Source: Bacteroidales bacterium
GTDB taxonomy: Bacteria > Bacteroidota > Bacteroidia > Bacteroidales > UBA932
DNA: 64,000 nucleotides
Direction of reading: 5' to 3'
Assembly (NCBI GenBank): GCA_017938925.1
Contig: JAGBAO010000017.1
Span: forward strand, 1-64,000
Part shown: positions 7,308-32,798 of the stretch, piece by piece
Layout of the letters: each line of letters opens with the position of its first letter
Position numbering within the stretch: position 1 is the first letter of the stretch
The notes under the pieces: generated by a model
The model's input: the letters and a program-made list of their open reading frames with translations, nothing else
What the model was told of the DNA's origin: nothing
Database searches by the model: none
Program-made: the position numbers and the translations under genes

Positions 7308-7332
7308 GGAAATAGCAGCTTAGCTGCAAATC

Positions 7333-7409: not shown

Positions 7410-7428
7410 GAGCAGAGCAATCTGTACA

Positions 7429-7460
7429 AACGCCCCGCAATTTGCGGGGCGTTCTGTTTT
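7429..7460 (+). terminator. Terminator after tRNA-Arg
   Basis: ACGCCCCGCAA pairs with TTGCGGGGCGT (7430-7452) and is followed by TCTGTTTTTT. This GC-rich hairpin with a U-run ends the rplS/tRNA-Arg transcript. Its right arm overlaps the left arm of the 64-base hairpin that follows. Confidence 0.8.
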
Positions 7461-7511
7461 TTAGTGCAGTCGAAAGCTTGCTTTCGTAACTGCACTAAAA
7501 AACAGAACGCC
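7448..7511. repeat. Near-perfect 64-base hairpin (inverted repeat)
   Basis: A 23-base arm (7448-7470) is exactly complementary to 7489-7511. Between them CGAAAGC and GCTTTCG (7471-7477 and 7480-7486) extend the stem around a TT loop, with only two unpaired bases (TA, 7487-7488). It is much longer than an ordinary terminator. The right half recurs at 32721-32742 without the left half. Confidence 0.85.
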
Positions 7512-7558
7512 AAAGGCGCGATAGCGCCTGGGCGTTTGCAGCTCTGAATGCTATGCCG
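7487..7558. repeat. Dispersed repeat, copy 1 (left end of the putative island)
   Basis: This copy consists of TAACTGCACTAAAAAACAG, an 18-base segment missing from the other copy that includes the hairpin GGCGC-gata-GCGCC, and a 35-base block (7524-7558). The 35-base block matches 32739-32773 at 34 of 35 positions. The second copy lies 25 kb away on the far side of the glycan locus and AbiE pair, in the same orientation. Confidence 0.8.
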
Positions 7559-7596
7559 TGACGAACATCAGGAAAAGGCATCGCGCAGCGATGGCT

Positions 7597-7613
7597 AATC
7601 CTGTCGGAGTCAC
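7597..7613 (+). repeat. Partial copy of the tRNA-Arg 3' end (attachment-site-like)
   Basis: The 17 bases AATCCTGTCGGAGTCAC are identical to 7391-7407, the T-arm and acceptor end of tRNA-Arg. No tRNA body precedes them. Such a duplicated tRNA 3' end is the usual trace of site-specific integration, or of a decayed tandem tRNA. A terminator follows at 7619. Confidence 0.6.
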
Positions 7614-7618
7614 TACAG

Positions 7619-7650
7619 ACCGCATTCCAGATATCTGGAATGCGGTTTTG
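7619..7650 (+). terminator. Terminator after the tRNA-Arg fragment
   Basis: Bases 7619-7646 form a perfect 28-base palindrome (ACCGCATTCCAGAT and its complement) followed by TTTT. The hairpin may be the original terminator that once followed the complete tRNA. Confidence 0.75.
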
Positions 7651-7692
7651 CTTTCATCGTGTTCCTTTGGATTGCGTTTGAGATAAATTTTC

Positions 7693-7701
7693 TAACTTTG
7701 C
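7693..7701 (+). promoter_or_regulatory. -7 element of the LacI-family gene
   Basis: TAACTTTGC matches TAnnTTTGC, with TTTGG at 7666-7670 as a possible -33 element (spacer about 23). It lies 33 bases upstream of the ATG at 7735. Confidence 0.55.
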
Positions 7702-7734
7702 ATCCATTATTTCTCATAAGCGATTCTAACTGCA

Positions 7735-8760
7735 ATGAAATCGAATAAGGTGACCATTAGGGATTTAGCGAAAGCACTTGGTGTTTCAACGACACTGGTG
7801 TCTTTTGCAATGAGTGACTCTCCTAAGAAATATCGAGTCAGTGATGAGATGATCGCCAAGATACGGGCAAAGGCCAAGGAGATGGACTATCAGCCGAATA
7901 ATGCTGCACGAAGTCTTCGTTCCGGCAAGAGCAACACTATCGGTGTTATTCTTTCCGACATCTCGAACCGTTTCTTTGCCGATATTACACGTTGTATTGA
8001 AGATCAGGCTTCTCAAAACGGGTATACCGTTCTCGTTGGTAGTACAGATGAGAAGCCGGAGCGACTTGCTAATCTTATAAAGGTCTTTCAGAATAAAGGC
8101 GTGGACGGTCTGATCATTGTTCCATGCGAGGGAGCAGAGTCTTCGATATCTGAATTGGTTGCGTCAGGATTTCCTCTTGTGCTTATTGACAGGTCGTTTG
8201 ATAATATCAATGTGAGTAGCGTCACCTTGAATAATATAAAGGCCACTTCACTTGCTGTTAATGAGTTGGTTGCTTCAGGATACAGGAAGATAGCATTTGT
8301 TTCTTATAAGACCAGTCTCACCAACATACTTGACCGTGAGATGGGTTATAGAAAAGCAATGCGCCTTAATGACTTGAAGGAACACATCTGTGCTAATGAA
8401 ATAGATTATTCGTCAATCAACAATGAATTGCTATCCCTCCTTCCGAAACTCATAAAACAAGGCACAGAGGCATTGATATTCTCTACGAACAGGCTTGCTA
8501 TTGAAGCTTTGATAGTCATTCAATCAATGGGGATGACTGTGCCGGAGGATGTCGCCTTTATCGGATTCGACGGTAGTGAGACTTTTGCCTTTAATCTTTA
8601 TCCTAAAGGTATAACATACATAAAACAGCCTATAGAACAATTCGGTTATGAGGCATTCAATCTTCTGGTTGCCAACATCATAGCTGGAGGAAAGACCGAC
8701 ATCGTCAACATCGAGCTCAATCCGGAGCTGGTCGTAAAAGAATCTTCTAAAAAATCTTAG
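7735..8760 (+). CDS. LacI-family transcriptional regulator
   Basis: This 341-residue DNA-binding protein has a LacI helix-turn-helix at residues 5-27 (VTIRDLAKALGVSTTLVSFA) and a hinge helix with the PNNAARSLRSG segment. A periplasmic-binding-like ligand domain follows (about residues 60-338, starting SNTIGVILSDISNRFF and including IGFDGSE). It heads the putative glycan locus and probably senses a sugar or sugar phosphate made by it. Two palindromes with a central CG, at 8806-8821 and 11282-11295, are candidate operators. The gene is separated from the aldolase gene by 91 bases that hold a new promoter. Whether it represses or activates cannot be told. Confidence 0.9.
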   Translation: MKSNKVTIRDLAKALGVSTTLVSFAMSDSPKKYRVSDEMIAKIRAKAKEMDYQPNNAARSLRSGKSNTIGVILSDISNRFFADITRCIEDQASQNGYTVLVGSTDEKPERLANLIKVFQNKGVDGLIIVPCEGAESSISELVASGFPLVLIDRSFDNINVSSVTLNNIKATSLAVNELVASGYRKIAFVSYKTSLTNILDREMGYRKAMRLNDLKEHICANEIDYSSINNELLSLLPKLIKQGTEALIFSTNRLAIEALIVIQSMGMTVPEDVAFIGFDGSETFAFNLYPKGITYIKQPIEQFGYEAFNLLVANIIAGGKTDIVNIELNPELVVKESSKKS

Positions 8761-8805
8761 AAAAAATGGGAAAAATTCTTGTTAAAGGTAAAATTTCTCT
8801 TGTAT

Positions 8806-8821
8806 GTTAAAACGATTTAGC
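8806..8821. promoter_or_regulatory. Candidate LacI-family operator 1
   Basis: GTTAAAACGATTTAGC is nearly palindromic around a central CG. It lies immediately upstream of the -7 element at 8823 and would block RNA polymerase if occupied. It shares the pattern T-x-AA-x-CG-x-TTTA with the site at 11282. LacI-family operators commonly have this shape; the assignment is an inference. Confidence 0.4.
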
Positions 8822-8822
8822 T

Positions 8823-8831
8823 TAAATTTGC
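8823..8831 (+). promoter_or_regulatory. -7 element of the aldolase/transporter operon
   Basis: TAAATTTGC fits TAnnTTTGC and lies 21 bases before the ATG at 8852. No clear -33 element is seen, as is common in regulated Bacteroidetes promoters. A candidate operator abuts it. Confidence 0.5.
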
Positions 8832-8851
8832 TGCAAATCAATTGTAATATA

Positions 8852-9766
8852 ATGAAAAAGTTACATGGAATAGTAGTGCCAATGGTTACTCCGTTGACAA
8901 CATTAAATGCGGAAATTGACTACAAAGCGACTGAGAAACTTGTCGAACACTTGATCTCCGGTGGAGTACATGGTATTTTCGTACTTGGTACAACTGGTGA
9001 AGCTCAAAGCCTTTCTGCAGCTCAGAGAGAATCCTTTGTAAAGTTTGTAGGAAAGCAGATTAATGGTCGGACTAGATACATTGTTGGCGTATCGGATACA
9101 AGTATCTCGGACTCAGTAAGACTTGCATCTGTGGCAAAGGATGCTGGTGCCGAGGGCGTAGTTGCTACTCCTCCATATTATTTTGCTCCATCTCAGTCAG
9201 ATATGGTAAATTGGTTCACAGCTCTGGCGGATGCTTCACCGCTTCCGGTCTATATGTACAACATGCCATCGCATGTAAAGGTGAATGTTGACCCTTCGAC
9301 TGTAGTTAAGCTTGCTTCTCATCCGAATATCAAGGGACTCAAGGACAGCTCACACAATATGACATATTTTCAGACGCTCGCATACCTTACTAAGGATGAG
9401 GAAGATTTTGTGTTATTAGTCGGACCGGAAGAGCAGACAGCTCAGGCAGTCCTTCTCGGTGGAGCTGGCGGAGTAAACGGTGGAGCGAATATGTTCCCGG
9501 AACTTTATGTGAAGTCGTATAATGCAGCAGCGGCAGGTAATCTTGAGACAGTAAGGAAATGCCAGGAGGCTATTCTGCATATTGCAACAGCTATTTATAC
9601 AGTAGGAGACGGCCCTTCAAGCTATCTTCAGGGACTCAAGGGCGCTCTTGAACTTCTCGGCCTTTGCAACAGGACTCTGGCCCTTCCTTATACAGCAATG
9701 TCTGATGAGAAGATGGTTGTTCTCAAGGAAGCGCTGGGTGGAATATCAACAGATGAATGGAGGTAA
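8852..9766 (+). CDS. NAL/DHDPS-family aldolase, probably N-acetylneuraminate lyase
   Basis: This 304-residue class I (Schiff-base) aldolase of the DapA/NanA family is cytoplasmic. It has the pyruvate-binding motif GTTGE, the catalytic Tyr136 in YNMP and the Schiff-base Lys164 in GLKDSS, spaced 28 residues as in E. coli NanA (Tyr137, Lys165). Context with a sodium symporter, BNR proteins and an O-acetylesterase favours cleavage of sialic acid to pyruvate and N-acetylmannosamine. No NanE epimerase or ManNAc kinase of the usual type is nearby, so a 2-keto-3-deoxy-sugar-acid aldolase remains possible. The ATG at 8852 was chosen because the family begins there (MKKLHGIVVPMVTP); an upstream in-frame ATG at 8804 overlaps the promoter. 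Confidence 0.85.
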   Translation: MKKLHGIVVPMVTPLTTLNAEIDYKATEKLVEHLISGGVHGIFVLGTTGEAQSLSAAQRESFVKFVGKQINGRTRYIVGVSDTSISDSVRLASVAKDAGAEGVVATPPYYFAPSQSDMVNWFTALADASPLPVYMYNMPSHVKVNVDPSTVVKLASHPNIKGLKDSSHNMTYFQTLAYLTKDEEDFVLLVGPEEQTAQAVLLGGAGGVNGGANMFPELYVKSYNAAAAGNLETVRKCQEAILHIATAIYTVGDGPSSYLQGLKGALELLGLCNRTLALPYTAMSDEKMVVLKEALGGISTDEWR

Positions 9767-9769
9767 GTT

Positions 9770-11218
9770 ATGGAACTTACAATATTAGACTATATCGTAT
9801 TCTTCATTTTTGTCGGAGGTGTCGCGCTTTTTGGCTGTAGCTTTTATTTCAAGAGCAAGTCGAGCGCATCCGCTTTCACAAAGGCAGAAGGTGAACTTCC
9901 TACTTGGGTAGTCGGAATGTCTATTTTTGCGACATTCGTCAGCAGCATCTCCTTTCTCGGACTTCCGGGAGGCGCATACGCAGGCAACTGGAACCAGCTT
10001 GTGTTCAGTCTTTCCATACCATTTGCTACATGGCTTGCCGCAAAGATCTTCATTCCGCTTTACCGAAGCATGAACAGCGTCTCGGCATATCACTATCTTG
10101 AGACAAAGTTCGGCTATTGGGCAAGGGCATACGTTGGTGTCTGCTATCTGCTTACCCAGCTTGCAAGGATAGGCTCGATCCTCCTTCTTCTTGCCATCCC
10201 GATCAATACAATGTTCGGATGGGATATCAGCACGATAATCATAGTGACAGGTGTGATAACACTTGTTTATTCACTTCTCGGAGGTATTGCTGCCGTAGTA
10301 TGGACAGATGCTATCCAGGGTATCATCCTGATTGTAGGAGCCGTAGTATGTGCTGCGCTCCTTACATTCGATATGCCAGAAGGACCAAAGCAGCTTTTCG
10401 AGATTGCAGCAGAACATAAGAAGTTCAGCCTTGGAAGCTTCGGTCTTTCACTCAACCAGCCTACATTCTGGGTGGTATTCATCTATGGTCTGTTCACCAA
10501 TCTTCAGAACTATGGGGTCGATCAGAACTATGTACAGAGATATATGACAGCCAAGACAACAGGTGAAGCAGTGAAGTCAACACTCTTCGGAGGACTCCTC
10601 TATATTCCTGTTTCTCTTGTATTTGTCTATATCGGAACAGCTCTGTTCTCTTACTACACAGCTCAGCCGGATCTTCTTCCTGCGGGTATTACAGGTGACA
10701 AGGTCTTCCCATATTTCATCGTACATGGTCTTCCAACCGGTCTTACCGGACTTGTGATTGCCTCTCTCTTCTCCGCAGGTATGAGTACGATTGCAACCAG
10801 CATCAACTCTTCGGCTACAATCGTACTTACAGACTTCTTCAAGAAGTTCCATAAGGGACAGAGCAGCAACAGGAAGGATATGACGGTGTTATATACCACT
10901 TCATTCCTGGTGGGAGCGATCGGTATTGTCGTAGGACTCCTGATGATGAAGGTAGAGGGAGTCCTCGATGCATGGTGGAAGCTTGCATCCATCTTCAGCG
11001 GCGGTATGCTGGGGCTCTTCCTTCTCGGTCTTGTGTGCAAGAATGTCAAGAAGACAAACGCAGTTGTCGCAGTCGCTGTAGGACTTGCAGTAATCGCGTG
11101 GATGAGTTTCCTTGCTCCATTCCACACGTATCTCACTATTGTATTCGGTACATCAGCTATCTTCCTTACCGGATTTGTGCTGACTAAACTTAGCGGACTA
11201 GTAAATAAAAAATCATAG
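9770..11218 (+). CDS. Sodium:solute symporter (SSS/SSF family)
   Basis: This 482-residue inner-membrane protein with about 13 hydrophobic helices imports a solute with Na+. The family signature is clear: VYSLLGGIAAVVWTDAIQG at about residues 166-184, and the conserved GLPTGLTGLVIASLFSAGMST region where the Na+ site lies. The start ATG follows GGAGGTAAGTT and comes three bases after the aldolase stop, so the pair is translationally close. SSS proteins carry sialic acid, sugars, amino acids and others; sitting next to a NAL-type aldolase suggests a sialic acid or related sugar acid. Base composition here is closer to the core genome than that of the SusCD region. Confidence 0.88.
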   Translation: MELTILDYIVFFIFVGGVALFGCSFYFKSKSSASAFTKAEGELPTWVVGMSIFATFVSSISFLGLPGGAYAGNWNQLVFSLSIPFATWLAAKIFIPLYRSMNSVSAYHYLETKFGYWARAYVGVCYLLTQLARIGSILLLLAIPINTMFGWDISTIIIVTGVITLVYSLLGGIAAVVWTDAIQGIILIVGAVVCAALLTFDMPEGPKQLFEIAAEHKKFSLGSFGLSLNQPTFWVVFIYGLFTNLQNYGVDQNYVQRYMTAKTTGEAVKSTLFGGLLYIPVSLVFVYIGTALFSYYTAQPDLLPAGITGDKVFPYFIVHGLPTGLTGLVIASLFSAGMSTIATSINSSATIVLTDFFKKFHKGQSSNRKDMTVLYTTSFLVGAIGIVVGLLMMKVEGVLDAWWKLASIFSGGMLGLFLLGLVCKNVKKTNAVVAVAVGLAVIAWMSFLAPFHTYLTIVFGTSAIFLTGFVLTKLSGLVNKKS

Positions 11219-11281
11219 CATTAAATATATATACTGTATGGATTCAAAAGGATCAATCAGATTATAGAGTTTGCCATAATT

Positions 11282-11295
11282 ATGAACCGGTTTAT
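11282..11295. promoter_or_regulatory. Candidate LacI-family operator 2
   Basis: ATGAACCGGTTTAT is palindromic with one mismatch around a central CG. It shares T-x-AA-x-CG-x-TTTA with the site at 8806-8821. It lies 10 bases before the start of the BNR lipoprotein gene, in an 86-base gap that has no exact TAnnTTTG element (TAGAGTTTG is one base off in spacing). Confidence 0.4.
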
Positions 11296-11304
11296 AAGTA
11301 GGGT

Positions 11305-12516
11305 ATGAAGAAATTTTTGTACATAATATCACTGTTTTTGTTACAACTTACCGCCTGTGCCAGCGATGTGATGTCAGAAAATCCTCTTCCTGAAAAGGAT
11401 ACAGGAAACAAGAGGCAAAAAAAGGTAAATGTATCACTTGATCTATCTTTATTGGATTCTTCAAAAAAGGATACATTTGGGCTGCCCTATCCTGAAGGTA
11501 TTCAGAGGATTCCAATATTTGAGCCATCTAATGAAGGTGATATGAAATTCAACAACCACCCGCAGCTTGTGGTATTTAAAGGTAAATTGTATGCTACATG
11601 GGTCGGGCATCCGATACATGAGCCGAGTCCAGAATCATGGGTTTACTATAGCTATTCGGATGATGGTGTGAATTGGGTCGCTCCCATAAGAGTCGGTCCG
11701 GATGGCAGAGCCAGTGGGGGTTGGATTACAGATGGAAAGGTTCTCGGATGTATGCTTATAGTTGGTGACAAGGCAAATAAAACATCAAACACCGAGGTCA
11801 TTTATACTACTGATGGAATAAATTGGTCTGCACCGAGATTGCTCTTGACTAATGCAGCTCCAAGTGAGAGTGCTCGTGTACTCCCGTCAGGACGGCAGAT
11901 CATTGTGTGTCATGGATTAGGTAAAGGCGAATTTGCCGGAGTACGGAAGACTCGTGTGATGTACACAGATGCAGAGGATATCTTTACTGGCTGGAAAGAA
12001 GCTGCTCTACCGGATCTATTGCCTTATAATGCAAATCAGAAAGAGAAGGTGGCTCGCCCTGTCGAAGCTAGTTGGTATAGAAGGAAGGATGGAATTTTAG
12101 TCATGTTATTCCGTGATTTATGGTTTGAAGCGAAGGACAGGACTTGGAAACTGTTATATTCTGTAAGTTATGATGATGGTGCATCTTGGACAGTCCCAGT
12201 GCTTACAAACATCCCTGATTCAGACTCCATGCAATGTGCCGGATCATTCGGCAAAGTTTGTTATTTTGTCAATAATCCCACGCCAACTCGCCGTCGTGTA
12301 CCGTTGACCATTGGTGTGAGTAGTGATGGAGAATTCTTTGACAAAATGTATTTGATCAGGAGTACACCTCAGCCTCGCCGTTACGAGGGTATAAGCAAGA
12401 CTGAAGGATATAGTTATCCGGGTTCTGTTGTGTGGGGAGATTATCTATATGTTTCATATGCGACAAATAAAGAGGATATCGAGGTGTCTCGCATACCATT
12501 ATCCTCGCTGAAATAG
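11305..12516 (+). CDS. BNR/Asp-box lipoprotein, sialidase-like
   Basis: This is a 403-residue lipoprotein: a signal peptide with lipobox LTAC (Cys18), then a mostly beta protein with Asp-box motifs SDDGVNW, TDGINW and YDDGASW. This indicates a sialidase-type beta-propeller. The Arg triad of true sialidases cannot be confirmed by eye, so it may be a sialidase, a related glycosidase or a surface glycan-binding propeller. Being the first gene after the symporter and 9 bases upstream of susC, it is probably part of the outer-membrane glycan machinery. It is AT-rich compared with flanking core genes. Confidence 0.8.
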   Translation: MKKFLYIISLFLLQLTACASDVMSENPLPEKDTGNKRQKKVNVSLDLSLLDSSKKDTFGLPYPEGIQRIPIFEPSNEGDMKFNNHPQLVVFKGKLYATWVGHPIHEPSPESWVYYSYSDDGVNWVAPIRVGPDGRASGGWITDGKVLGCMLIVGDKANKTSNTEVIYTTDGINWSAPRLLLTNAAPSESARVLPSGRQIIVCHGLGKGEFAGVRKTRVMYTDAEDIFTGWKEAALPDLLPYNANQKEKVARPVEASWYRRKDGILVMLFRDLWFEAKDRTWKLLYSVSYDDGASWTVPVLTNIPDSDSMQCAGSFGKVCYFVNNPTPTRRRVPLTIGVSSDGEFFDKMYLIRSTPQPRRYEGISKTEGYSYPGSVVWGDYLYVSYATNKEDIEVSRIPLSSLK

Positions 12517-12525
12517 AACATACCC

Positions 12526-15672: not shown

Positions 15673-15674
15673 AA

Positions 15675-17489: not shown

Positions 17490-17490
17490 C

Positions 17491-20443: not shown

Positions 20444-20456
20444 ATAGAAAAATGGT

Positions 20457-22727: not shown

Positions 22728-24063
22728 ACATATCAGAACGCTGATTTTTACAGTTTTACCTGTTTTTATTGCGTCTTGTACGCCTGAGTCGTATGATTCT
22801 TCAGTACAGGATTATGGGCAACTAAAGGTGTCAGTTACAGGTGCGGAACAGCTTACGCATGTACTTTTGATACCGGAAGTCGATACCATTGCTTTTGATG
22901 GCCCGGAAGTGCAAGTTGACTCTATACCTGGTGGAAATCATAGAATAATATTGTATTCGAAGTCGGATGGCTTTTTCTATGACGGAAGTGTGGCGTCTTG
23001 CGTGACAACAGAGGCGGATATATATGTGGAATCTACTATGTTTAATATACGCCCCTCTGTTGTAAACGAAATTCATCTTCAACCACGAAAGTTTAATCGT
23101 GTTGTACATTTGGAACTGCAGAATGCTGAAACTGTGACATCTGCAACTGCAATTATGGGTAATGTGGCATCGGCTGTCGACATGGAGTTCAACAGACTCA
23201 TGAACCCTCAGAATATCATAATGCCGTTGACATGTCTTGAAGCGGATGATTCATATGAAAAACAAGAGAAGGTACTGGGCTTTATCGGGGATTATCTTCA
23301 GATCAGACTTGAGCTCGCCGGAGAGGAAGAAAATGCTCTTCAGATATCGGTTGACTTGTCTGAAATCGGATACAATCCGTACGAAGTTTGCGATCTGAAT
23401 ATTGTCATAGATATGTCAGTCAAACCTTTGGTGGCAGAAGTTACACTTGGAGAGCGGACGTGTTCAGTAGACATAAGGGAAAGTTATCGGGTCGGAGATT
23501 ATTATCCGAATCCGAATGTAGATATAACGGACCCCATATCAGTCTCAAAAATTGAAGGGATTGTTCTTGAAGTGGGGCCTGACGGCTTTCACGGCAAGAT
23601 GTTGAGTCTGCAGGAGGGCTCGTCTTTGGCTTGGAATACTACCGGTGCAGCAGACTATACAGATGATGAAGATGATGGGATGGCCAATTTTACAACGGTC
23701 AAGGCTAAAGATCCTTCATTTGCCTCATACCCGGCCTTTGCCTGGTGTGCCTCTTTGGGAGAAGGATGGTATATACCGGCTGTCAATGAGGTGATGTTGA
23801 TAAGAAGCGTTTGGAAGGACAATAAAACTTTGCTGGACAATAAGTTCGCAGCAATTGGCGCGACGCCTTTATCCGCCACGAAATATGTATCATCCAAAGG
23901 TAAGGATCAGGCATCATACTACTACTCATCTACAGAATATGCGAATTCTCGAAATAAGATATTGAGTGTAAGTTTTAATGGTACCTCTGCTGCGGGTTCC
24001 GGACTTAAGAAGTCATCCGGCACGCAGGAGAACCTTTTGTTCAGAGCAGTGAAATTATTTTAA
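22714..24063 (+). CDS. Lipoprotein: Mfa2/DUF5119-like N-terminus plus DUF1566-like C-terminal module
   Basis: This 449-residue lipoprotein has a signal with lipobox FIASC. The N-terminal half (about residues 25-255) resembles FimB/Mfa2 (DUF5119-like) fimbrial anchor proteins. The C-terminal module (about residues 260-449, from YRVGDYYPNPN to LLFRAVKLF) has the marks of a DUF1566/Lcl-type domain, which is related to the FGE and C-type lectin folds: AWCASLGEGWYIPAVNEV and YYYSSTEY. The next two large genes end in the same module. I chose the ATG at 22714, which overlaps the GH89 stop; one at 22690 is in frame. The role is probably surface adhesion or glycan binding. Confidence 0.7.
   Translation: MNWNKHIRTLIFTVLPVFIASCTPESYDSSVQDYGQLKVSVTGAEQLTHVLLIPEVDTIAFDGPEVQVDSIPGGNHRIILYSKSDGFFYDGSVASCVTTEADIYVESTMFNIRPSVVNEIHLQPRKFNRVVHLELQNAETVTSATAIMGNVASAVDMEFNRLMNPQNIIMPLTCLEADDSYEKQEKVLGFIGDYLQIRLELAGEEENALQISVDLSEIGYNPYEVCDLNIVIDMSVKPLVAEVTLGERTCSVDIRESYRVGDYYPNPNVDITDPISVSKIEGIVLEVGPDGFHGKMLSLQEGSSLAWNTTGAADYTDDEDDGMANFTTVKAKDPSFASYPAFAWCASLGEGWYIPAVNEVMLIRSVWKDNKTLLDNKFAAIGATPLSATKYVSSKGKDQASYYYSSTEYANSRNKILSVSFNGTSAAGSGLKKSSGTQENLLFRAVKLF
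23583..24063 (+). repeat. Intragenic repeat copy A (C-terminal module)
   Basis: About 480 bases that code for the last 160 residues of the lipoprotein are nearly identical to 25207-25687, including many synonymous positions and the stop codon. Differences are scattered and amount to roughly one base in twenty by eye. The regions upstream are unrelated in sequence, so this is recent duplication or gene conversion of the module only. Confidence 0.85.
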
Positions 24064-24074
24064 CCAATTATATT

Positions 24075-24200
24075 ATGAAACAGAAAAATTATGAGTCTCC
24101 ATTATTTATGGAGTGGGAATTTATTCCCGAGGGAACTTTATGCCAAAGTTCGGTCCCAGAAGCATTGAAAGATTGGGAAATTGTACAAGAAACATGGTAA
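24075..24200 (+). CDS. 41-residue peptide of the Bacteroidales fimbrillin-associated type
   Basis: The frame starting at ATG 24075 codes for MKQKNYESPLFMEWEF, then IPEGTLCQSSVPEALKDWEI and a short end (VQETW) before TAA at 24200. Small proteins with the pattern Y-x-x-P, an E-G-x-L-C-x-S motif and a Trp near the end are common beside fimbrillin-like and surface-lipoprotein genes in Bacteroidales, but I know of no assigned function. It lies 11 bases after one lipoprotein stop and 5 bases before the start of the next, which fits translational coupling. It has no signal peptide and a single Cys. Confidence 0.6.
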   Translation: MKQKNYESPLFMEWEFIPEGTLCQSSVPEALKDWEIVQETW

Positions 24201-24205
24201 TTAAA

Positions 24206-25687
24206 ATGATTAAGAAAATGAAAAAGACTCTTTTGTTTACAACTGCCATTGCCATGTGCTTTGCAGTCTCATGTGCAGAATTTGAGGATGATATGAATGT
24301 CAATTCCGGTGAGGGAATGACTGTGACAGCCAGTCTGGAGGAAATTACAAGAACTCATCTTGATGGGGTAAGTATGTACTGGAAACAGTCAGATGCAATC
24401 AATGTGGCTATTGATCCTGCTGTTTCTTCAAAACCATACTCCGTGACATTAGATAGATTTGACCTTCAGTCTGGAGCAGACACAAAAAGTGCGGTGTTCA
24501 AATCAGAAACAGCCTCTCCAGGAAATGTATATCACGCAGCTTACCCTGCCACTTCCTATGTGAAAGAAGGGGAAAGATATATCTTTTTTGATTTTCCTTA
24601 CGAGCAGGAATATGTGGAGAATGGAATTAAAGACGGTTATGTACCGATGTATGCATATGGTGTGGATGATCCTTCAAAACTTAGTTTCATGTATGGAAGC
24701 GGTATTGTAAGACTGAATCTTTATGATGCACAGTCTGCAAATCCTGTAAGCATTTCTAAGATAGAGGTGACTACTGATCAGCCGGCATCTGGGTTGATGG
24801 TTGCTTCATTGAATCTTAACAGGTTCCCTGCATACAGAATGAATACCAACAAGCAATATACTATTACCTATGATGTGCCGGATGTTGTCTTGAGTAAAGA
24901 TCAGACACAGCCAACTTCATTCAACATTTGCCTTGCAAATACTATAAGTAATGGCGCCAAATTATTAACTGACGGTGTATATGCTTCAGTTACATTCAAG
25001 GTTTACGCTTCCGACGGAAGTGTGTTTACAAAGACCAAGCAGAATCAGACGATCGAAGGTGGAAAGATATATGACTTCCCGGCTGTTCAGTATGAGGGTG
25101 CGGTTACATATAAGGTAGGTGACTACTACCCGAACCCATCTGTGGATGTCAATGATCCTGAAGAAGTCGCTAAGGTTGAAGGAATTGTATTTGCGGTGAG
25201 TGAAGATGGCTTTCACGGCAAGATATTGAGTCTGCAGGAGGGCTCGTCTTTGGCTTGGAATACTACCGGTGCAGCAGACAATACAAATGATGAAGATGAT
25301 GGGATGGCCAATTTTACAACGGTCAAGGCTAAAGATCCTTCATTTGCCTCATACCCGGCCTTTGCCTGGTGTGCCTCTTTGGGAGAAGGATGGTATATAC
25401 CAGCTGTTAATGAGGTGTTGTTGATAAGAACCGTATGGCAGGCCAATAAAACTTTGCTGGACAATAAGTTCGCAGCAATTGGCGCGACGCCATTGTCTGC
25501 CACGAAATATGTCTCATCCAAAGGTAAGGATCAGGCATCATACTACTACTCATCTACAGAATATGCGGATTCTCCAAATAAGATATTGAGTGTAAGTTTT
25601 AATAGTACCTCTGATGCGGGTTCCGGACTTAAGAAGTCATCCGGCACGCAAGAGAACCTTTTATTCCGAGCAGTGAAATTATTTTAA
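24206..25687 (+). CDS. Fimbrillin-like lipoprotein with the DUF1566-like C-terminal module
   Basis: This 493-residue lipoprotein has a signal with lipobox FAVSC. The N-terminal half has the fimbrillin-like pattern (TASLEEITRTHLDGVSMYWK, YHAAYPAT, FDFPYEQEY). These proteins form surface fibres or adhesive layers. The C-terminal module (YKVGDYYPNPS to LLFRAVKLF) is nearly identical to that of the gene before. I chose the ATG at 24206 (or 24218), since the longer frame from 24113 overlaps the 41-residue peptide in another frame and adds a non-signal leader. The combination of fibre-type and lectin-like domains in a glycan locus suggests attachment to the glycan. Confidence 0.72.
   Translation: MIKKMKKTLLFTTAIAMCFAVSCAEFEDDMNVNSGEGMTVTASLEEITRTHLDGVSMYWKQSDAINVAIDPAVSSKPYSVTLDRFDLQSGADTKSAVFKSETASPGNVYHAAYPATSYVKEGERYIFFDFPYEQEYVENGIKDGYVPMYAYGVDDPSKLSFMYGSGIVRLNLYDAQSANPVSISKIEVTTDQPASGLMVASLNLNRFPAYRMNTNKQYTITYDVPDVVLSKDQTQPTSFNICLANTISNGAKLLTDGVYASVTFKVYASDGSVFTKTKQNQTIEGGKIYDFPAVQYEGAVTYKVGDYYPNPSVDVNDPEEVAKVEGIVFAVSEDGFHGKILSLQEGSSLAWNTTGAADNTNDEDDGMANFTTVKAKDPSFASYPAFAWCASLGEGWYIPAVNEVLLIRTVWQANKTLLDNKFAAIGATPLSATKYVSSKGKDQASYYYSSTEYADSPNKILSVSFNSTSDAGSGLKKSSGTQENLLFRAVKLF
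25207..25687 (+). repeat. Intragenic repeat copy B (C-terminal module)
   Basis: This is the partner of 23583-24063. The DNA stays almost identical up to the stop codon and the AACC just after it, then diverges. A third, older relative of the module forms the whole of the next gene (25706-26356) and is clearly different at DNA level. Confidence 0.85.
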
Positions 25688-25705
25688 CCCTACAATTATA
25701 AGATT

Positions 25706-26356
25706 ATGAGAAGATTTGTTTTGGTTGCGACCATGATCGTTTCGCTTATGCCGGCAATGGCTCAGACTTTTAAGGTCGGGGATTTTTATCCGGATCCGAA
25801 TGTAAATCTTGATGATGCTGGTGCGGTAGCAGCAATTGAGGGGGTTGTCTTCCTGGTGTCAGAAGATGGTAAAAGCGGAAAGATATTCAGCCTGAAAGAA
25901 GGCAAAGGTCTGAAATGGAGTGTGACCGGCGATGTCGACTATACAGAAGATACCGATGACGGAATGTCAAACTTCAATACTGTGCGCGCTATGGAACCAG
26001 ACTTCTATAGTTATCCGGCTTTTGCTTGGTGTGCGTCTTTGGGCGAAGGATGGTATATCCCGGCTATTAATGAATTGGTAGCAATGCGTGAGGCTTGGGG
26101 TATGACTCAGGCAAAGCGTCGCGCCTTGAATTCCCGAATTCAGAAAGCCGGAGGAGATCCTATCCAGCAGTCTATCTTCGTTCAATCGCGCGGCAGCAAT
26201 ATGAGCGCGATCTACTATTCTTCTACTGAACATCCAGAGAAAAGGAATAAAGTGCTCTCACTTAGTTTCAATAGTACAGGTGGCGCGGGGGATGGCCTGA
26301 AGAAGCTGTCAGACTCTATGGAAAATCTGTTGTATAGAGCAGTTAAGCAGTTCTAA
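25706..26356 (+). CDS. Secreted single-module DUF1566-like protein
   Basis: This 216-residue protein has a signal peptide ending at MAMAQ (cut before TFKVGDFYPDPN) and consists only of the module that ends the two previous proteins: SYPAFAWCASLGEGWYIPAI, YYSSTEHPE, ENLLYRAVKQF. It is not a lipoprotein, so it would be periplasmic or released. About half the residues match the module of its neighbours. It may be the ancestral stand-alone form. The ligand is unknown. Confidence 0.7.
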   Translation: MRRFVLVATMIVSLMPAMAQTFKVGDFYPDPNVNLDDAGAVAAIEGVVFLVSEDGKSGKIFSLKEGKGLKWSVTGDVDYTEDTDDGMSNFNTVRAMEPDFYSYPAFAWCASLGEGWYIPAINELVAMREAWGMTQAKRRALNSRIQKAGGDPIQQSIFVQSRGSNMSAIYYSSTEHPEKRNKVLSLSFNSTGGAGDGLKKLSDSMENLLYRAVKQF

Positions 26357-26359
26357 TAG

Positions 26360-28131: not shown

Positions 28132-29121
28132 ATGAGCAAACCAAGAATTCTAGTAGTCGGAAGTTTCGTGATGGACCTCGTGGCGTCGGCCAGAAGAACT
28201 CCCGACTTGGGTGAAACCGTGATCGGTTTCGCCTTCAGGACGGCTCCGGGAGGCAAAGGAGCCAATCAGGCTGTGCAGGCGGCAAGGCTCGGAGCCATAA
28301 CTGATATGGCCGGTTGTGTGGGGAGCGATTCTTTTGGAAGAGAGATGATCCAGGCCTTGAAATCTTCCGGTGTAGACACAAGCCATGTGAAGGTCAGTCA
28401 GGAGCTTCCTACCGGTGTGGGACATATCGAGATCCAGGACAGTCCGGAAGGAGTACAGAACAGGATCATTGTGGTTCCTGGCGCCAACTATGACCTGAAG
28501 CCATCTGACCTCGACTGGCTCAAGGAAGGAATAAAATCCTATGACATGGTCATCATGCAGCTTGAGCTGGAAATGGAGACAATCGAATATGTCGCTCGTC
28601 TTGCTCATGATGCCGGGGTTCCGGTGATGCTTAACCCTGCCCCTGCGGCAGCTCTGTCTGACGAACTTCTCTCTTGTGTGACATACCTTACTCCTAACGA
28701 GACAGAGGCGGCTATCCTTGCGGGTATAAAGACCGACGCTGAAGGCAGACTTTCTGAAGATATTCTGAAGAATGCAGCTTCAGTACTCATGAGCAAAGGT
28801 GTAGAGAATGTGATCATTACCCTTGGTGATCAGGGTGCAGCTTTATGTACTGAAGATGGAGTCCGGATCATACCTTGCGTGAAGATGACAGATGTGAAAG
28901 ACCCGACAGCTGCCGGAGATTCATTTGTGGGAGGATTTTGTGCAGGAATATCTGCAGGGCTGTCTATGCAGGAAGCATTGCAGCTCGCAGTCCATACAGC
29001 TGCCATCACCGTCTGTGGTTACGGAGCTATACCTTCCCTACCTGTTCTCGAGCAGGTCGAGGCCCTTATGAAGGAAAGAAATTTCAAAGAACTGAACGAT
29101 AAACTGAATAATCTGAAATGA
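28132..29121 (+). CDS. PfkB-family sugar kinase, ribokinase-like
   Basis: This 329-residue cytoplasmic kinase has the PfkB folds and signatures: APGGKGANQAVQAARLG near residue 42 (substrate and dimer region) and DPTAAGDSFVGGF (ATP site with the catalytic Asp) near residue 259. Ribokinase is its closest well-known relative, but PfkB kinases act on many sugars and nucleosides, and a product of this locus could be the substrate. An ATG at 28120 is an alternative start; I prefer 28132 because the protein then begins SKPRILVVGSFVMDLV like its family. It overlaps the next gene by ATGA. The base composition resembles the core genome more than the SusCD block. Confidence 0.86.
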   Translation: MSKPRILVVGSFVMDLVASARRTPDLGETVIGFAFRTAPGGKGANQAVQAARLGAITDMAGCVGSDSFGREMIQALKSSGVDTSHVKVSQELPTGVGHIEIQDSPEGVQNRIIVVPGANYDLKPSDLDWLKEGIKSYDMVIMQLELEMETIEYVARLAHDAGVPVMLNPAPAAALSDELLSCVTYLTPNETEAAILAGIKTDAEGRLSEDILKNAASVLMSKGVENVIITLGDQGAALCTEDGVRIIPCVKMTDVKDPTAAGDSFVGGFCAGISAGLSMQEALQLAVHTAAITVCGYGAIPSLPVLEQVEALMKERNFKELNDKLNNLK

Positions 29122-29732
29122 TACAAGAAAAAAGTATAGATACCTTGAAGAATTTTCTTGCTTCGGCTAAGGAAAATTTCTCTTCATCCATTGACAGCGT
29201 AGACTTGGATGCTTGTAAAAAAGCAGCAGAACTGATACTTGCTGCTCAAGCAAATGGTGGTCGCATACATGTAACAGGCATCGGAAAGCCAGGACATGTT
29301 GCAGCATATGCAGCATCGCTCCTTTCTTCAACCGGTAACCCGGCAGCCTTCCTCCATGGTACGGAGGCAGTGCACGGATCATGCGGACAGCTTGTTGCTG
29401 GAGACGTGGTGATAGCCATTTCAAATTCAGGCGAAACAGTCGAACTGAAAGCTACGGTAAATGCAATTCATAATAACGGATGCAAGGTCATCGCTGTGAC
29501 AGGAAATCCTGACAGCTGGCTGTCAAAGAATTCCGAATGCACTCTACTTGCCGGCGTTTCGGAAGAGGGCGGTCCTCTGAATCGTGCACCGCGTAACTCG
29601 GTAAATGCTGAAATGCTTATTCTTGAGGCTCTGAGTGTGGTTCTTCAAGTGGAGAAGGACTGGGATCCTGAAAAGTATGTAAGATGCCACCCAGGTGGTA
29701 AGTTGGGCGAACTAAGGGAGAATGAGAAATGA
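29118..29732 (+). CDS. SIS-domain sugar-phosphate isomerase (KpsF/GutQ-like, no CBS domains)
   Basis: This 204-residue protein has one SIS domain (about residues 30-185: HVTGIGKPGHVAAYAASLLS, AISNSGETVELKATV). KpsF/GutQ arabinose-5-phosphate isomerases share this domain and the HPGGKLGE end, but they carry two CBS domains afterwards; here the protein stops right there. It would isomerise an aldose phosphate and a ketose phosphate. ATGA overlaps with both the kinase before and the mutarotase after point to tight coupling, so its substrate is probably the kinase product. The true sugar is unknown. Confidence 0.83.
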   Translation: MIQEKSIDTLKNFLASAKENFSSSIDSVDLDACKKAAELILAAQANGGRIHVTGIGKPGHVAAYAASLLSSTGNPAAFLHGTEAVHGSCGQLVAGDVVIAISNSGETVELKATVNAIHNNGCKVIAVTGNPDSWLSKNSECTLLAGVSEEGGPLNRAPRNSVNAEMLILEALSVVLQVEKDWDPEKYVRCHPGGKLGELRENEK

Positions 29733-30136
29733 ATAAAGGTAAATGTATAAATCCATGCATTCTCGCGGCGGTCAGCCGTCTTGGTCATGGTGACAAGATT
29801 CTGATTGCTGACGGCAATTATCCACTTAACAGCAAAACCGGAGATGCCGAGAAGATATGGGTGTCTCTTATTCCCGGACTTCCGACTGTGACTGATGTCC
29901 TTGATGCTCTTCAGTCTATCATCAATGTTGAGGCGGCAGCAGTAATGCAACCCTCTGAAGGACCTGAACCAGAAATCTTCAAGGAATTTGAAGCAAGGCT
30001 CCAGGAAATGGAACTTAAGAGACTTGGCAGATTCGAGTTCTACGACGAATGTACCAAGCAACCGCTCAGCTTAGCCATTGCGACCGGAGAGAAACGTACT
30101 TTTGCAAACATTCTGTTAACAGTGGGTTGTGCATAA
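29729..30136 (+). CDS. RbsD/FucU-family sugar mutarotase
   Basis: This 135-residue cytoplasmic protein has the RbsD/FucU fold, which speeds exchange between anomers or ring forms of a free sugar. The motifs LGHGDKILIADGNYP (conserved His and Asp) and ATGEKRTFANILLTVG at the end fit FucU better than RbsD. It is the third gene of the coupled cassette (ATGA overlap with the isomerase). It would act on the sugar before phosphorylation. A strong hairpin follows directly. Confidence 0.85.
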   Translation: MNKGKCINPCILAAVSRLGHGDKILIADGNYPLNSKTGDAEKIWVSLIPGLPTVTDVLDALQSIINVEAAAVMQPSEGPEPEIFKEFEARLQEMELKRLGRFEFYDECTKQPLSLAIATGEKRTFANILLTVGCA

Positions 30137-30140
30137 ATTG

Positions 30141-30175
30141 AAAACGGCAGTAGATTTGACTCTATTGCCGTTTTT
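30141..30175. terminator. Bidirectional terminator between the converging operons
   Basis: AAACGGCAGTAGA pairs with TCTATTGCCGTTT (one G-U pair) around TTTGAC, followed by a T-run on the plus strand and preceded by an A-run for the minus strand. It ends the rightward glycan locus. The leftward gene's stop codon lies inside the right arm, so both directions use it. Confidence 0.8.
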
Positions 30176-30503
30176 CTAATAGATTGAGTCCGCTCCATTC
30201 TTTCTTGCCCTTGACCTTCGTTTCAATCTCCACTTTGGTAACGACACCTTCCGGAGTGGTATGAATCCGATAGTTGACATTTTTATCTGTTGAAGGATGA
30301 AAGCATACAAGGCGAGCCAGTTGCTCATCCTTTATGTTCACTTTATGTTTTCTCACCTCCAACTCTTCCTCGGTGTAGTCTGACAGAACCCCTTCAAGCT
30401 TCTTGATGTACCGTGCATCGGACTCCATTACCTCAATTCGATCCTTTACCCTCTCTATATCTAACTTTGAGTGCTGAAATACCCCAAATACGACAAGATT
30501 CAA
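30162..30503 (-). CDS. Hypothetical 113-residue protein
   Basis: The protein is soluble and charged, with a Lys/Glu-rich start (KLDIERVKDRIEVMESDARY), a stretch ESDARYIKKLEGVLSDYTEE and a C-terminus rich in alternating Lys/Val. I recognise no family. The start is uncertain: a TTG at 30503 allows the full frame, and an ATG at 30428 gives 88 residues. It follows the DUF4325 gene by 16 bases on the same strand, so the two may work together. The gap between the two genes is too small for a promoter. Confidence 0.5.
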   Translation of the reverse strand: MNLVVFGVFQHSKLDIERVKDRIEVMESDARYIKKLEGVLSDYTEEELEVRKHKVNIKDEQLARLVCFHPSTDKNVNYRIHTTPEGVVTKVEIETKVKGKKEWSGLNLLEKRQ

Positions 30504-30519
30504 TAAGGTTCGCTTCTTC

Positions 30520-30885
30520 TTACAAACAGATTGTCTTCATCCAGTCTGTCATTTCTTTTACAGTCTGGAATCTATGAGTAGTCGTATTAGCAGGCTCTTC
30601 ATAGAGTTTTTTGCCAGTCTGTGTCTGACTTACAACATTAAGCATATATTGGATATCCTCAGGCAGATTGATAGACTCTACCTTTATTCCATTCAGCTTA
30701 CCATGGTCATTTACGAATGTGTTGTAATACTCATCCATGAAGCTACGAGTAGCAAACAAGACCTTAGCAAAATCTATCTGAATCTCCTGTTCGTTGGAGT
30801 TCAGAACATAGAGCAGAAGATCCGCCACAGTAGAGCGTGACTTCAAATCAGGGCTCAATACAGTTGTGATATCTATTGTTTTCAT
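30520..30885 (-). CDS. DUF4325 (STAS-like) protein
   Basis: This 121-residue soluble protein resembles DUF4325, a STAS-like domain: SRSTVADLLLYVLN near the start and DFAKVLFATRSFMDEYYNTFVN in the middle. STAS-like domains often act as switches that bind partner proteins or nucleotides. The family frequently occurs near defence or mobile genes. GGAGGAACAGAAT precedes the ATG, so the start is good. The AbiE pair lies upstream on the same strand, about 140 bases away. Confidence 0.7.
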   Translation of the reverse strand: MKTIDITTVLSPDLKSRSTVADLLLYVLNSNEQEIQIDFAKVLFATRSFMDEYYNTFVNDHGKLNGIKVESINLPEDIQYMLNVVSQTQTGKKLYEEPANTTTHRFQTVKEMTDWMKTICL

Positions 30886-31024
30886 ATTCTGTTCCTCCGT
30901 TATTCTACGTAATTGATATAGTTAAAATCTTTGTTATCAAAAGGCAGTTCATTCCGCATTAATTTTGAAAAATAGACTTAACCTACCCATGTAAACCTAA
31001 TCCATCTGCCTTGACAATGAGATT

Positions 31025-31834
31025 TTATTTTTCCCTTTTCCCCGGCATTCTGTCTATAAATGTATTTTTGACTAAATCATAAGCCAACGTTGCATCGAAT
31101 TTATCGGCATCTGAACGGAGCAGAATCTCTGTATCTCCGATGAACTCCGGATCTACAAGCTTAGCCTCCATATTGGCAACAAACTGCTTATAGGTCGGAG
31201 CCTTCTCAACAACAAACTCCATATATGCATTATAGCATTTCAGGACGTTGTCAACATTGATATCCTTCTGCTGTAATGCAATCTGAAGATCGTAAAGATC
31301 TCTGCCCTTCTTTCGCTGATATAATGCTCGTATCTTTGTCCCTATGAGTTCGTCAAGGTGATATGTGGTTATTTCACACGAGCCCGAAAACCATTTATTA
31401 TTGACAGAGAATGGGACTTTAGTAAGTCCTAAAACATTGAAATGCTCATAACAGTTGATCTCTACCTTGAGTCTGATCTGTTGCACCGGAGGAATCTCTG
31501 ACTCCATCCTGAAAAGCATTGTATTGTTGTATCTCTTCTGCTTTGTCACTTTTCCCGGCATCCACGAAAGAACCTCACCTAAACGTTCCATTATAGGCTT
31601 GATTGGTCCCGGGTGTATCTGCACGAGATCAATATCTTCACTATAACGTGGCTGAGGATGCAGATACAACTTATGTAGTGCTGTTCCACCACGAAATGCT
31701 AACTGACTTGCCAGGAACTCATCGCCAAATATGCAGACTAACGCTTTACAGATAATAAGGTCTTGTTCTATCATAAATGGCTCAGACCATGGCGCATGTT
31801 CGCTCCATGCTAAAATAGATGCCCTGTCAATCAT
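31025..31834 (-). CDS. AbiEii/AbiGii-type nucleotidyltransferase toxin
   Basis: This 269-residue toxin of a type IV toxin-antitoxin abortive-infection system is a nucleotidyltransferase that modifies RNA, often tRNA. It has the family's four motifs: GGTALHKLYL, RYSEDIDLV (metal-binding Asp), the segment RLKVEIN, and KKGRDLYDL near residue 180. It overlaps the antitoxin gene by four bases. AbiE pairs are frequent on phage-defence islands and conjugative elements. Here the pair closes the right side of the putative island. Confidence 0.9.
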   Translation of the reverse strand: MIDRASILAWSEHAPWSEPFMIEQDLIICKALVCIFGDEFLASQLAFRGGTALHKLYLHPQPRYSEDIDLVQIHPGPIKPIMERLGEVLSWMPGKVTKQKRYNNTMLFRMESEIPPVQQIRLKVEINCYEHFNVLGLTKVPFSVNNKWFSGSCEITTYHLDELIGTKIRALYQRKKGRDLYDLQIALQQKDINVDNVLKCYNAYMEFVVEKAPTYKQFVANMEAKLVDPEFIGDTEILLRSDADKFDATLAYDLVKNTFIDRMPGKREK

Positions 31835-32631
31835 AACTCATCAATTTCTATATCTATGTTAAAGTCTATATTCCAACGATTAGACTGGCAATATTCACTT
31901 TTTGCGTGACTGTTACTAAATAGCAAAGTATTCCAAACCCTTTTCTTCTTTGTCGCTGCGATCGTATACAATTCATCTGACATGCCCTTTTCGTCCAGAA
32001 CGAATTCCAACATAAACCCTAATCTACGAATCGAAGACATTGTTGTATATGGAATTACATCCTTCATCTTGGCTATGTCTAAACGCTCGCACAGTTCAGA
32101 GAGAACAGTTGCCGCTCTTTGGTATCCGCCAACCTTAGAAGCATATTGAACCAGATCGACCGCAGTCAATTCTGGACAAGAATACAGCATGGTTCCTGTT
32201 TCTGTATTTATTTTATATAGTAGGCCTGATGGTATCTCACTGCGATAATTCCAATCGAGACTCCTGTTTCTATCTGAAACGCGGCTTCTTGGCAGAACTG
32301 TCATCACTTGAGTGGACATCGCTCTTTGATGAGTGGCACCATGCATGGCTGCTGCTGTAAGAAGACACACGTAATAAGGCTTCCCCAACACTACCATCAA
32401 TTGATCAATATAATAAGATGGTGGGATATTCCCTTTCAATGCATATTGAGGGGGAATAACAACATAAAATCCGCGATAAGGGGACATGATCAACCTACCC
32501 TTTATGAGTCTGGCCAATTCTATCCTTATCCCATCATCTGAAAACGATGGGAATGCATTAGCGACGTCTGCTATGCAAAAGGTTGCTTGTCCGCGAATTT
32601 CGCGATTCCTTATCCATTCTCTAATTGTCAT
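31831..32631 (-). CDS. AbiEi-type antitoxin
   Basis: This 266-residue protein belongs to the AbiEi antitoxin/regulator group, with a winged helix-turn-helix at the N-terminus (FCIADVANAFPSFSDDGI, LARLIKGRLIMSPYRGFYVV) and a C-terminal domain that counters the toxin. The family usually represses its own operon. I chose the ATG at 32631 because a promoter element (TATTTTTGC, minus strand, 32647-32655) lies just upstream; a longer frame runs through it. It is coupled to the toxin by a four-base overlap. Confidence 0.85.
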   Translation of the reverse strand: MTIREWIRNREIRGQATFCIADVANAFPSFSDDGIRIELARLIKGRLIMSPYRGFYVVIPPQYALKGNIPPSYYIDQLMVVLGKPYYVCLLTAAAMHGATHQRAMSTQVMTVLPRSRVSDRNRSLDWNYRSEIPSGLLYKINTETGTMLYSCPELTAVDLVQYASKVGGYQRAATVLSELCERLDIAKMKDVIPYTTMSSIRRLGFMLEFVLDEKGMSDELYTIAATKKKRVWNTLLFSNSHAKSEYCQSNRWNIDFNIDIEIDEL

Positions 32632-32646
32632 AGTCACTATTTTGTT

Positions 32647-32655
32647 GCAAAAATA
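32647..32655 (-). promoter_or_regulatory. -7 element of the abiE operon
   Basis: On the minus strand TATTTTTGC fits TAnnTTTGC and lies 16 bases before the antitoxin start. No clear -33 TTTG is found at the right distance. Confidence 0.5.
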
Positions 32656-32720
32656 AGCATTTTTTGTATATTTATGCAATAAAATGATGATTTTTATAAA
32701 TCCAGCAGATTTACACTTAG

Positions 32721-32773
32721 TAACTGCACTAAAACAGAGCGCCTGGGCGTTTGCAGCTCCGAATGCTATGCCG
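32721..32773. repeat. Dispersed repeat, copy 2 (right end of the putative island)
   Basis: TAACTGCACTAAAA (14 bases), CAGAGCGCC, and a 35-base block (32739-32773) match 7487-7500, 7503-7511 and 7524-7558. The inner hairpin of copy 1 is missing. It lies between the diverging abiE and addB genes. The matching orientation with copy 1 makes the two direct repeats that bracket 25 kb. Confidence 0.8.
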
Positions 32774-32798
32774 CAACTTTTTTTCTCCTGTGCTACAC

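Follow-up and report, generated by a model that had tools for sequence, protein, structure and literature searches.

Cloverleaf units behind tRNA genes of Bacteroidota, an apparently undescribed family, and a 25-kb island beside one of them

Introduction

The window analysed here, 64,000 nucleotides of a Bacteroidales genome (UBA932 in the GTDB lineage; assembly GCA_017938925.1, contig JAGBAO010000017.1, positions 1 to 64,000, forward strand), carries about 25 kb of accessory genes, for sugar degradation and defence, between a transfer RNA gene, tRNA-Arg, and an addB-like gene, with a hairpin-rich direct repeat near either end. This raises the question of what the repeats are and how the block came to lie between them. 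Islands and prophages targeted to tRNA or transfer-messenger RNA (tmRNA) genes are known to duplicate the tRNA end at their far side, and an initial annotation, made from the letters of the window, had read the locus as an inserted island bracketed by direct repeats beside tRNA-Arg. The insertion itself is borne out by an empty site in the closest relative found, but a role of the repeats as the attachment (att) sites of the island is not supported in that form: the left one belongs to a unit that occurs without the island in other species, and the right one is a decayed partial copy that is not its equivalent. The units fold into a cloverleaf, copy the end of the adjoining tRNA and apparently constitute an undescribed family of DNA or RNA elements. 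As sites of integration, tRNA ends play a central part in the evolution of bacterial genomes, and the units occupy such sites in much of the genus and in scattered lineages of the phylum.

Results

The tRNA-Arg(acg) gene called by ARAGORN (7333–7409, plus strand) is followed directly by an intact unit of ∼206 bp, spanning from the tRNA 3′ end to an exact 17-bp duplicate of that end. The end itself (AATCCTGTCGGAGTCAC, 7391–7407, plus strand) recurs at 7597–7613; a pattern search finds two exact matches in the window and in the genome, and two matches were obtained in 0 of 100 shuffles even at 3 mismatches. The cloverleaf, a four-way junction (7408–7564, plus strand), is supported by covariation, by its fold and by 143.6 bits under our covariance model R1, this copy being among the model's own 24 input sequences. 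Its arm A (7429–7453, plus strand; seen in the fold and as a self-complementary BLAST match) is a GC hairpin followed by a T-run and by its look would be the intrinsic terminator of tRNA-Arg. Downstream lies a mimic of the tRNA T-arm (7558–7613, plus strand), GTGAC..CAGGA-hairpin-AATCCTG..GTCAC, which is identified by its fold and by the core duplicate that forms its last part, and which is kept in relatives. A hairpin or terminator similar to that of tRNA-Arg in genome G007 stands directly 3′ of the duplicate (7619–7646, plus strand). The fold of 7410–7650 has z = −14.7, with equal stability in 0 of 200 shuffles.

The direct repeat described initially is real and has the same orientation at both ends. 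Its 36 nt at 7523–7558, within the cloverleaf, agree at 35 positions with 32738–32773, the match stretches to 7483–7559 and 32717–32774 once gaps of 2 and 17 nt are allowed, and a 28-nt core pattern at up to 3 mismatches occurs in the 2.67-Mb genome in these two places only. What the initial annotation had missed is the exact duplicate of the tRNA end and the non-equivalence of the repeats. Whereas copy 1 is complete, copy 2 (32717–32774, plus strand, by alignment to copy 1 and to genome G159) is a decayed partial second unit representing the 3′ side of the cloverleaf; the 5′ half, 17 internal nt and the hairpin of the T-arm mimic are absent from it.

Units of this kind contain no open reading frame (ORF), measure about 180–220 bp and lie directly behind tRNA or tmRNA genes. 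All 24 unit sequences folded singly were strongly paired and mostly of the cloverleaf type, their parts being a closing stem, an arm A with a T-run behind it, a long arm B and an arm C. The apex of arm B is conserved (around CTTG/CTCG), and this arm also contains an internal loop (CCGT../..TAAGG). Compensatory changes across homologues mark the unit as a structured RNA or DNA element. In a MAFFT alignment with majority structure (A2), double changes occur at 52 of 64 pairs, amounting to 264 cells against 94.6 in shuffled alignments, a value reached by 0 of 500 shuffles, and slid controls drop to 61–103 double-change cells. In a further alignment (A4) of 56 sequences, made to the model and hence biased towards it, 61 of 62 pairs and 1063 double-change cells were found compared with 292 after shuffling; L404, L008, L081 and L094 were left out of A4, and L428 and L429 were added, neither of which reached the cut-off. 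Cells with G·U pairs outnumber those with A·C by 84 to 37 in A2, most strongly in arms A and B, which suggests RNA-like selection on one strand in these arms. Since the closing stem is without such a bias (21 versus 18 in A2) and the T-run may bias arm B, these counts do not separate RNA from DNA, and either RNA or single-stranded DNA may be the selected form.

A search of Rfam returned only tRNA above cut-off, both in 7200–7800 of the window (E-value mode) and in 17 loci (gathering thresholds), and Rfam families were rejected as an identity for the unit, the sub-threshold matches in the window looking like chance hairpins. Judged by titles and abstract starts, such units were not recognisable in any of the open-access papers retrieved. 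Palindromic candidate RNAs of Bacteroidetes have been described near phage genes, TPR genes, ruvA or tonB, and the portion of that text considered here places none of them behind tRNA genes (PMC8040213).

Model R1 matched 180 of 300 genomes of the genus (E ≤ 1e-3) and 51 of 393 genomes of the order (34 of 206 genera, E ≤ 1e-6), and model R2 matched 24 of 395 genomes of the phylum (21 of 171 genera, E ≤ 1e-6); the tallies include the genome of the window and uninspected matches, the order and phylum genomes are samples, and searches over more than 40 genomes ran under stricter filters. The unit is symmetric, so that R1 also matches the reverse strand of true units at a lower score (∼60 bits for the window unit), and linkage to tRNA was therefore checked in 119 matches, comprising 62 genus matches picked from those listed (all at the strong end, E ≤ 2e-14) together with 29 order and 28 phylum loci drawn from the best-scoring. 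Directly behind an ARAGORN tRNA lie 104 of the 119, and most of the others lie behind tmRNA or tRNA-like 3′ ends. Within the genus, 57 of 62 start within 45 nt behind a tRNA on the same strand; the other five follow a tRNA-Ser 3′ end where the contig stops (L351), tRNA-Ser-like 3′ fragments (L347, L365 and L376) or neither (L360). The corresponding figure for the order is 25 of 29 (including L409, from the same genus as the window). Of the remaining four, L402 stands behind a tmRNA called by ARAGORN, L417 behind the same tmRNA-like end, here not called by it, L418 behind a tRNA-Ser-like end, and L408 behind a fragment resembling tRNA-Pro, an intact tRNA-Pro lying 1.2 kb upstream. For the phylum it is 22 of 28, and the other six include the second unit of a tandem array (L460) and four units behind tRNA-like ends or fragments recognised by eye (L444, L446, L453 and L454); L455 was set aside as an apparent false positive.

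Units of identical architecture are found behind tRNA-Ser and tRNA-Gly. Behind tRNA-Arg the unit occurs in G159 and in at least 13 further members of the genus. The 11 tRNA-Arg loci that could be oriented (stretches of 0.3–10.9 kb) gave no sign of a further unit copy, and in 11 tRNA-Arg loci with downstream ORFs, of which G335 has only a unit remnant, none of the 28 nearest ORFs was recognised by Pfam as an integrase. A driver gene linked to the unit was rejected, recurrence at more than three loci being confined to rplS and dnaJ beside tRNA-Arg. The conserved apex has 0 exact matches in IMG/VR. A looser pattern has one match there, on viral contig L463 (∼10.4–10.8 kb), where a unit follows a tRNA-Pro-like 3′ fragment; this is consistent with, but does not prove, a prophage junction in which the prophage was inserted between tRNA and unit.

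The hairpin of the T-arm mimic, NNGGA-hairpin-AATCCNN, is usually located 3′ of the cloverleaf. Its 3′ strand copies the adjoining tRNA, starting at the T-loop of the latter and running 3′-wards, often over 6 to 18 nt, and reads AATCCTG by tRNA-Arg, AATCTCG or AATCCC by tRNA-Ser and AATCCGAC by one tRNA-Ala. The longest exact match in 116 pairs of tRNA and unit has a mean length of 8.6 nt, compared with 4.2 nt for tRNAs of other isotypes and 3.2 nt for shuffled sequences, the own-tRNA score being lowered by the inclusion of some upstream cluster members that are not the true neighbour. A match of at least 6 nt is missing in 7 of the 116 pairs, and some shorter matches fall outside a recognisable mimic. 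The match to the own tRNA is 10.0 versus 5.2 nt at 25 order loci (at least 8 nt in 13 of them) and 7.0 versus 4.8 nt at 22 phylum loci, two of which are cut by contig ends.

When 400 genomes of the genus were searched with the region behind tRNA-Arg, 37 matched, including that of the window, and besides the latter a single near-identical match was obtained, in G159 (97%), the closest relative found. The gene order in G159 is rplS, tRNA-Arg, one full unit and addB, with a gap of 464 bp between rplS and addB, about 25 kb missing and flanking neighbours colinear with the window on both sides. Such an empty site, without the insert and with a single repeat, was the very test that the initial annotation had proposed, and it confirms the island as a block of ∼25 kb gained between tRNA-Arg and addB (7616–32716, no strand; boundaries approximate, from the junction alignment with G159 and synteny). 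To the right of the G159 unit, the aligned sequence is that of neither window junction. A candidate tRNA core at the right end (32699–32716) was rejected, its score being equalled by 227 of 2000 shuffles and by 233 of 609 island windows. The block appears AT-rich, as had been noted, with a GC content in 2-kb windows of ∼0.40–0.48 inside and mostly 0.46–0.54 outside, and its NAGLU gene is matched in 76 of the 151 genomes of the genus that were searched (that of the window included), none above ∼51% identity save itself. The GC dip and this distribution suggest a foreign origin, and the G159 empty site together with the lack of a close NAGLU relative in the genus makes gain in the window lineage more likely than loss in G159.

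Only one of 80 addB loci (L173, taken as the G159 locus) has rplS-tRNA-Arg upstream of addB within the stretches examined, several contigs ending close to addB. In many relatives (addB loci L155–L232) o998–o2531 are upstream of addB instead, and it is therefore probable that the grpE-dnaJ-rplS-tRNA-Arg block moved beside addB in an ancestor of the window and G159.

The gene content of the insert is as first described. A glycan operon (7735–30136, plus strand; Pfam, NCBIfam) encodes a LacI regulator, a DHDPS/NanA-like lyase, an SSS symporter, BNR, SusC, SusD, DUF5017, FGE-BNR and NAGLU proteins, three related proteins without a Pfam match, a SASA esterase, a ribokinase, a KpsF/GutQ-like SIS protein and RbsD. 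NCBIfam cut-offs are passed only by the ribokinase and sss models, and the lyase falls short of those of all NCBIfam models that it matches. The three ORFs without a Pfam match are adjacent (23485–26068) and share 300-nt segments 64–86% identical, likely reflecting a tandem duplication within the operon. On the minus strand (30162–32634; Pfam, PADLOC) follow a hypothetical gene, a DUF4325-like gene below the Pfam cut-off, and AbiEii and AbiEi, whose adjacency (Pfam, PADLOC) identifies an AbiE toxin-antitoxin pair. In agreement with the integrase-free layout noted at the outset, the 20 ORFs of the island that were scanned with Pfam include no integrase. The right flank is formed by the addB-like gene, so named in the initial annotation (32844–35783, plus strand; Pfam PDDEXK_1, E 9e-27), the G159 orthologue of which comes directly after the tRNA-Arg unit.

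Two other sites in the same genome have a different layout. At C8 (13241–56053) a unit follows a 15-nt tRNA-Ser(tga) end, TCCCTCTCTCTCCGC, while the intact tRNA-Ser(tga), adjoined by a tyrosine integrase (PF00589, E 1.2e-14), has the same orientation and is found 42.6 kb further upstream. At C10 (39038–63918) a unit comes after 44 nt of tRNA-Met, the intact gene being 24.7 kb away, and the two ORFs beside that tRNA-Met have no Pfam match. It is likely that in both cases DNA was inserted between tRNA and unit, giving putative islands with the unit left at the far end. In the window, unlike at tRNA-Ser and tRNA-Met, the unit is still at tRNA-Arg and the island lies beyond it, and the window island is therefore not of this simple kind.

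Further tRNA ends of the genome also carry repeated structures. At C24:2149–2530 (L148/L430), behind tRNA-Ser(gga), a hairpin is succeeded by four ∼61-bp repeats in tandem, every one of which contains a T-arm mimic (GGGATGTGCGAGC..GCGAGCAAATCC) as well as the tRNA end in inverted orientation. At C5:232132–232450 (L149/L431), the structure behind tRNA-Ser(gct) comprises a hairpin, long and perfectly paired, together with several mimics of the T-arm and is apparently a reduced unit. At C32:33413 (L132/L432), the 3′ end of tRNA-His and its terminator are duplicated ∼110 bp downstream.

Discussion

On balance, we favour the explanation that the unit is an ORF-less element that docks at tRNA 3′ ends and that the island was caught between two copies of it. 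The unit would be a non-autonomous element recombining at the tRNA 3′ end by means of an enzyme supplied in trans; the duplicated tRNA end would restore the tRNA, and arm A with its T-run would replace the tRNA terminator and keep the tRNA functional. The island would then lie between the intact unit docked at tRNA-Arg and a displaced, since decayed unit, having either come in at the tRNA core in company with a unit or been followed by the docking of a new unit. Consistent with this order of events, the core of copy 2 matches the G159 unit at 36 of 36 positions and copy 1 at 35 of 36, and the length of its A-run is also that of G159, so that copy 2 may be the older, displaced unit, although a handful of sites is weak evidence. 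It is also quite possible, though somewhat less certain, that the units form a class extending across the Bacteroidota, in which non-coding mobile cloverleaf units of ∼200 bp integrate at the 3′ ends of tRNA and tmRNA genes, copy the tRNA end into the T-arm mimic, bring a replacement terminator, pile up in tandem and trap cargo islands at their docking points.

Movement of the units is suggested by two observations. In G842, unit and tRNA end are repeated head to tail behind tRNA-Ser in steps of 177–179 bp, in two blocks. Among 109 cloverleafs from 85 genomes, 41 have their nearest neighbour at a different isoacceptor, and some of these pairs are 85–91% identical over 141–151 nt, as for Ser-tga of G189 with Ser-cga of G187 (90%) and with Ser-gct of G115 (85%), the mimics of the G115 and G189 units being AATCTCG and AATCCC, respectively. 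The tandem array and the similarity across tRNAs together suggest acquisition by recombination at the tRNA end.

Several points weigh against this explanation. The other 68 of the 109 nearest neighbours are at the same isoacceptor, where 14% would be expected by chance, and inheritance of the units therefore looks mostly vertical; no precise recent gain of a unit between sister strains was found. An excised or autonomous form of the unit was not seen, though no systematic search was made, and the sole empty/occupied comparison for a unit is that of G007 with the window, in which the terminator match is weak. Clustering of 310 ORFs from up to 94 loci revealed neither a gene recurrent beside the units nor a candidate enzyme, there is no recognisable attR core near 32.7 kb, and matches of at least 8 nt are found at just 7 of 22 phylum loci (control, 34 of 452). 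The G·U excess, finally, fits an RNA role as well.

The alternatives answer two separate questions, the nature of the unit and the arrival of the island, and their probabilities are not meant to sum to one. Regarding the first, the unit may not be mobile at all but a vertically inherited non-coding RNA or trailer of tRNA transcripts, acting as terminator and as antisense or mimic of the tRNA end, with the tRNA-like end evolving in concert by selection or gene conversion. We regard this as rather unlikely. In its favour, arm A with its T-run resembles a tRNA terminator, the structure is strongly conserved, most nearest neighbours share an isoacceptor, and G·U is in excess, most strongly in arms A and B. 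It does not readily accommodate the tandem array with its repeated tRNA end, the similar cloverleafs behind different tRNAs or the many genomes without a match, and the G·U bias, which is absent from the closing stem, may reflect a constraint of the T-run.

As to the arrival of the island, homologous recombination between donor and recipient copies of the unit or of tRNA-Arg would need no site-specific enzyme and would leave copy 2 as the recipient's unit. The G159-like allele of copy 2, the resemblance of the sequence after the core duplicate to the native tRNA-Arg terminator of G007, and the rearrangement of the tRNA block relative to many relatives all agree with it. The common homology is short, however, no donor genome was identified, and copies 1 and 2 differ at too few sites for origins to be assigned. 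We consider this route rather unlikely, although it may account for the arrival of the island as well as entry with a unit would.

A classical tRNA-targeted island, whose now lost integrase used tRNA-Arg and whose attL and attR are the repeats, is slightly more doubtful still. The position beside tRNA-Arg, the direct repeats, the AT-rich insert, the G159 empty site and the tRNA-end duplicate at 7597–7613 are what such an island would show, and an integrase does adjoin tRNA-Ser(tga) in the same genome. Yet the left repeat is part of a unit present in G159 without the island, no second unit copy was seen in the loci of other species that could be oriented, the unit has remained docked at the tRNA rather than being displaced as at tRNA-Ser and tRNA-Met, the right-end core is not above chance and the 20 scanned ORFs contain no integrase.

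It is very improbable that the island is ancestral and was lost in G159, a single genome, through recombination between the two units that would permit this, as NAGLU exceeds ∼51% identity in no other sampled member of the genus (151 genomes) and the sequence right of the G159 unit matches neither window junction. An assembly or binning artefact, namely a chimeric join at the repeat, is very unlikely, despite the fragmented genome (34 contigs), the metagenome-assembled close relatives and the boundaries near repeats, given that the 36-nt repeat core with its one mismatch is short, the unique flanks on either side are colinear with G159 and the contig measures 167 kb.

If the units are mobile, as we propose, they would be a minimal, ORF-less kind of element at tRNA ends that carries the match to its target in base pairs, and the question would arise which enzyme moves them; if they are not, they make up a family of tRNA-linked RNAs that is both large and new. 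In both cases, wherever such units are present, it can be misleading to take repeats of tRNA ends for the att sites of an island, as the present locus illustrates.

Among known systems, islands and prophages that use a tyrosine integrase share with the unit the 3′ end of tRNA or tmRNA as a target. The unit differs from them in measuring only ∼200 bp, in having no ORF and no linked integrase, and in its conserved cloverleaf, terminator-like arm and capacity for tandem arrangement. The attC sites of integrons are likewise imperfect palindromes that possibly fold as single strands and occur in arrays; for the unit, by contrast, no linked gene was found, there are no cassette ORFs and the ends copy a tRNA. 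T-box and other tRNA-sensing RNAs resemble the unit in being structured and in carrying sequence complementary to tRNA ends, but they precede synthetase or amino-acid genes, whereas the unit stands behind tRNA genes and has no match in Rfam. Repetitive extragenic palindromic (REP) sequences and bacterial interspersed mosaic elements, mobilised by RAYT (Y1) transposases, are short, non-coding and palindromic like the unit, and REP families of palindromic repeats have been described, with G-T pairs noted (PMC3733652, in the part considered here). REPs are palindromes of 20–40 bp with a GTAG or CGTC tag, whereas the unit differs in size and architecture, being a four-way junction that is tied to tRNA ends and has a tRNA-matched end of its own.

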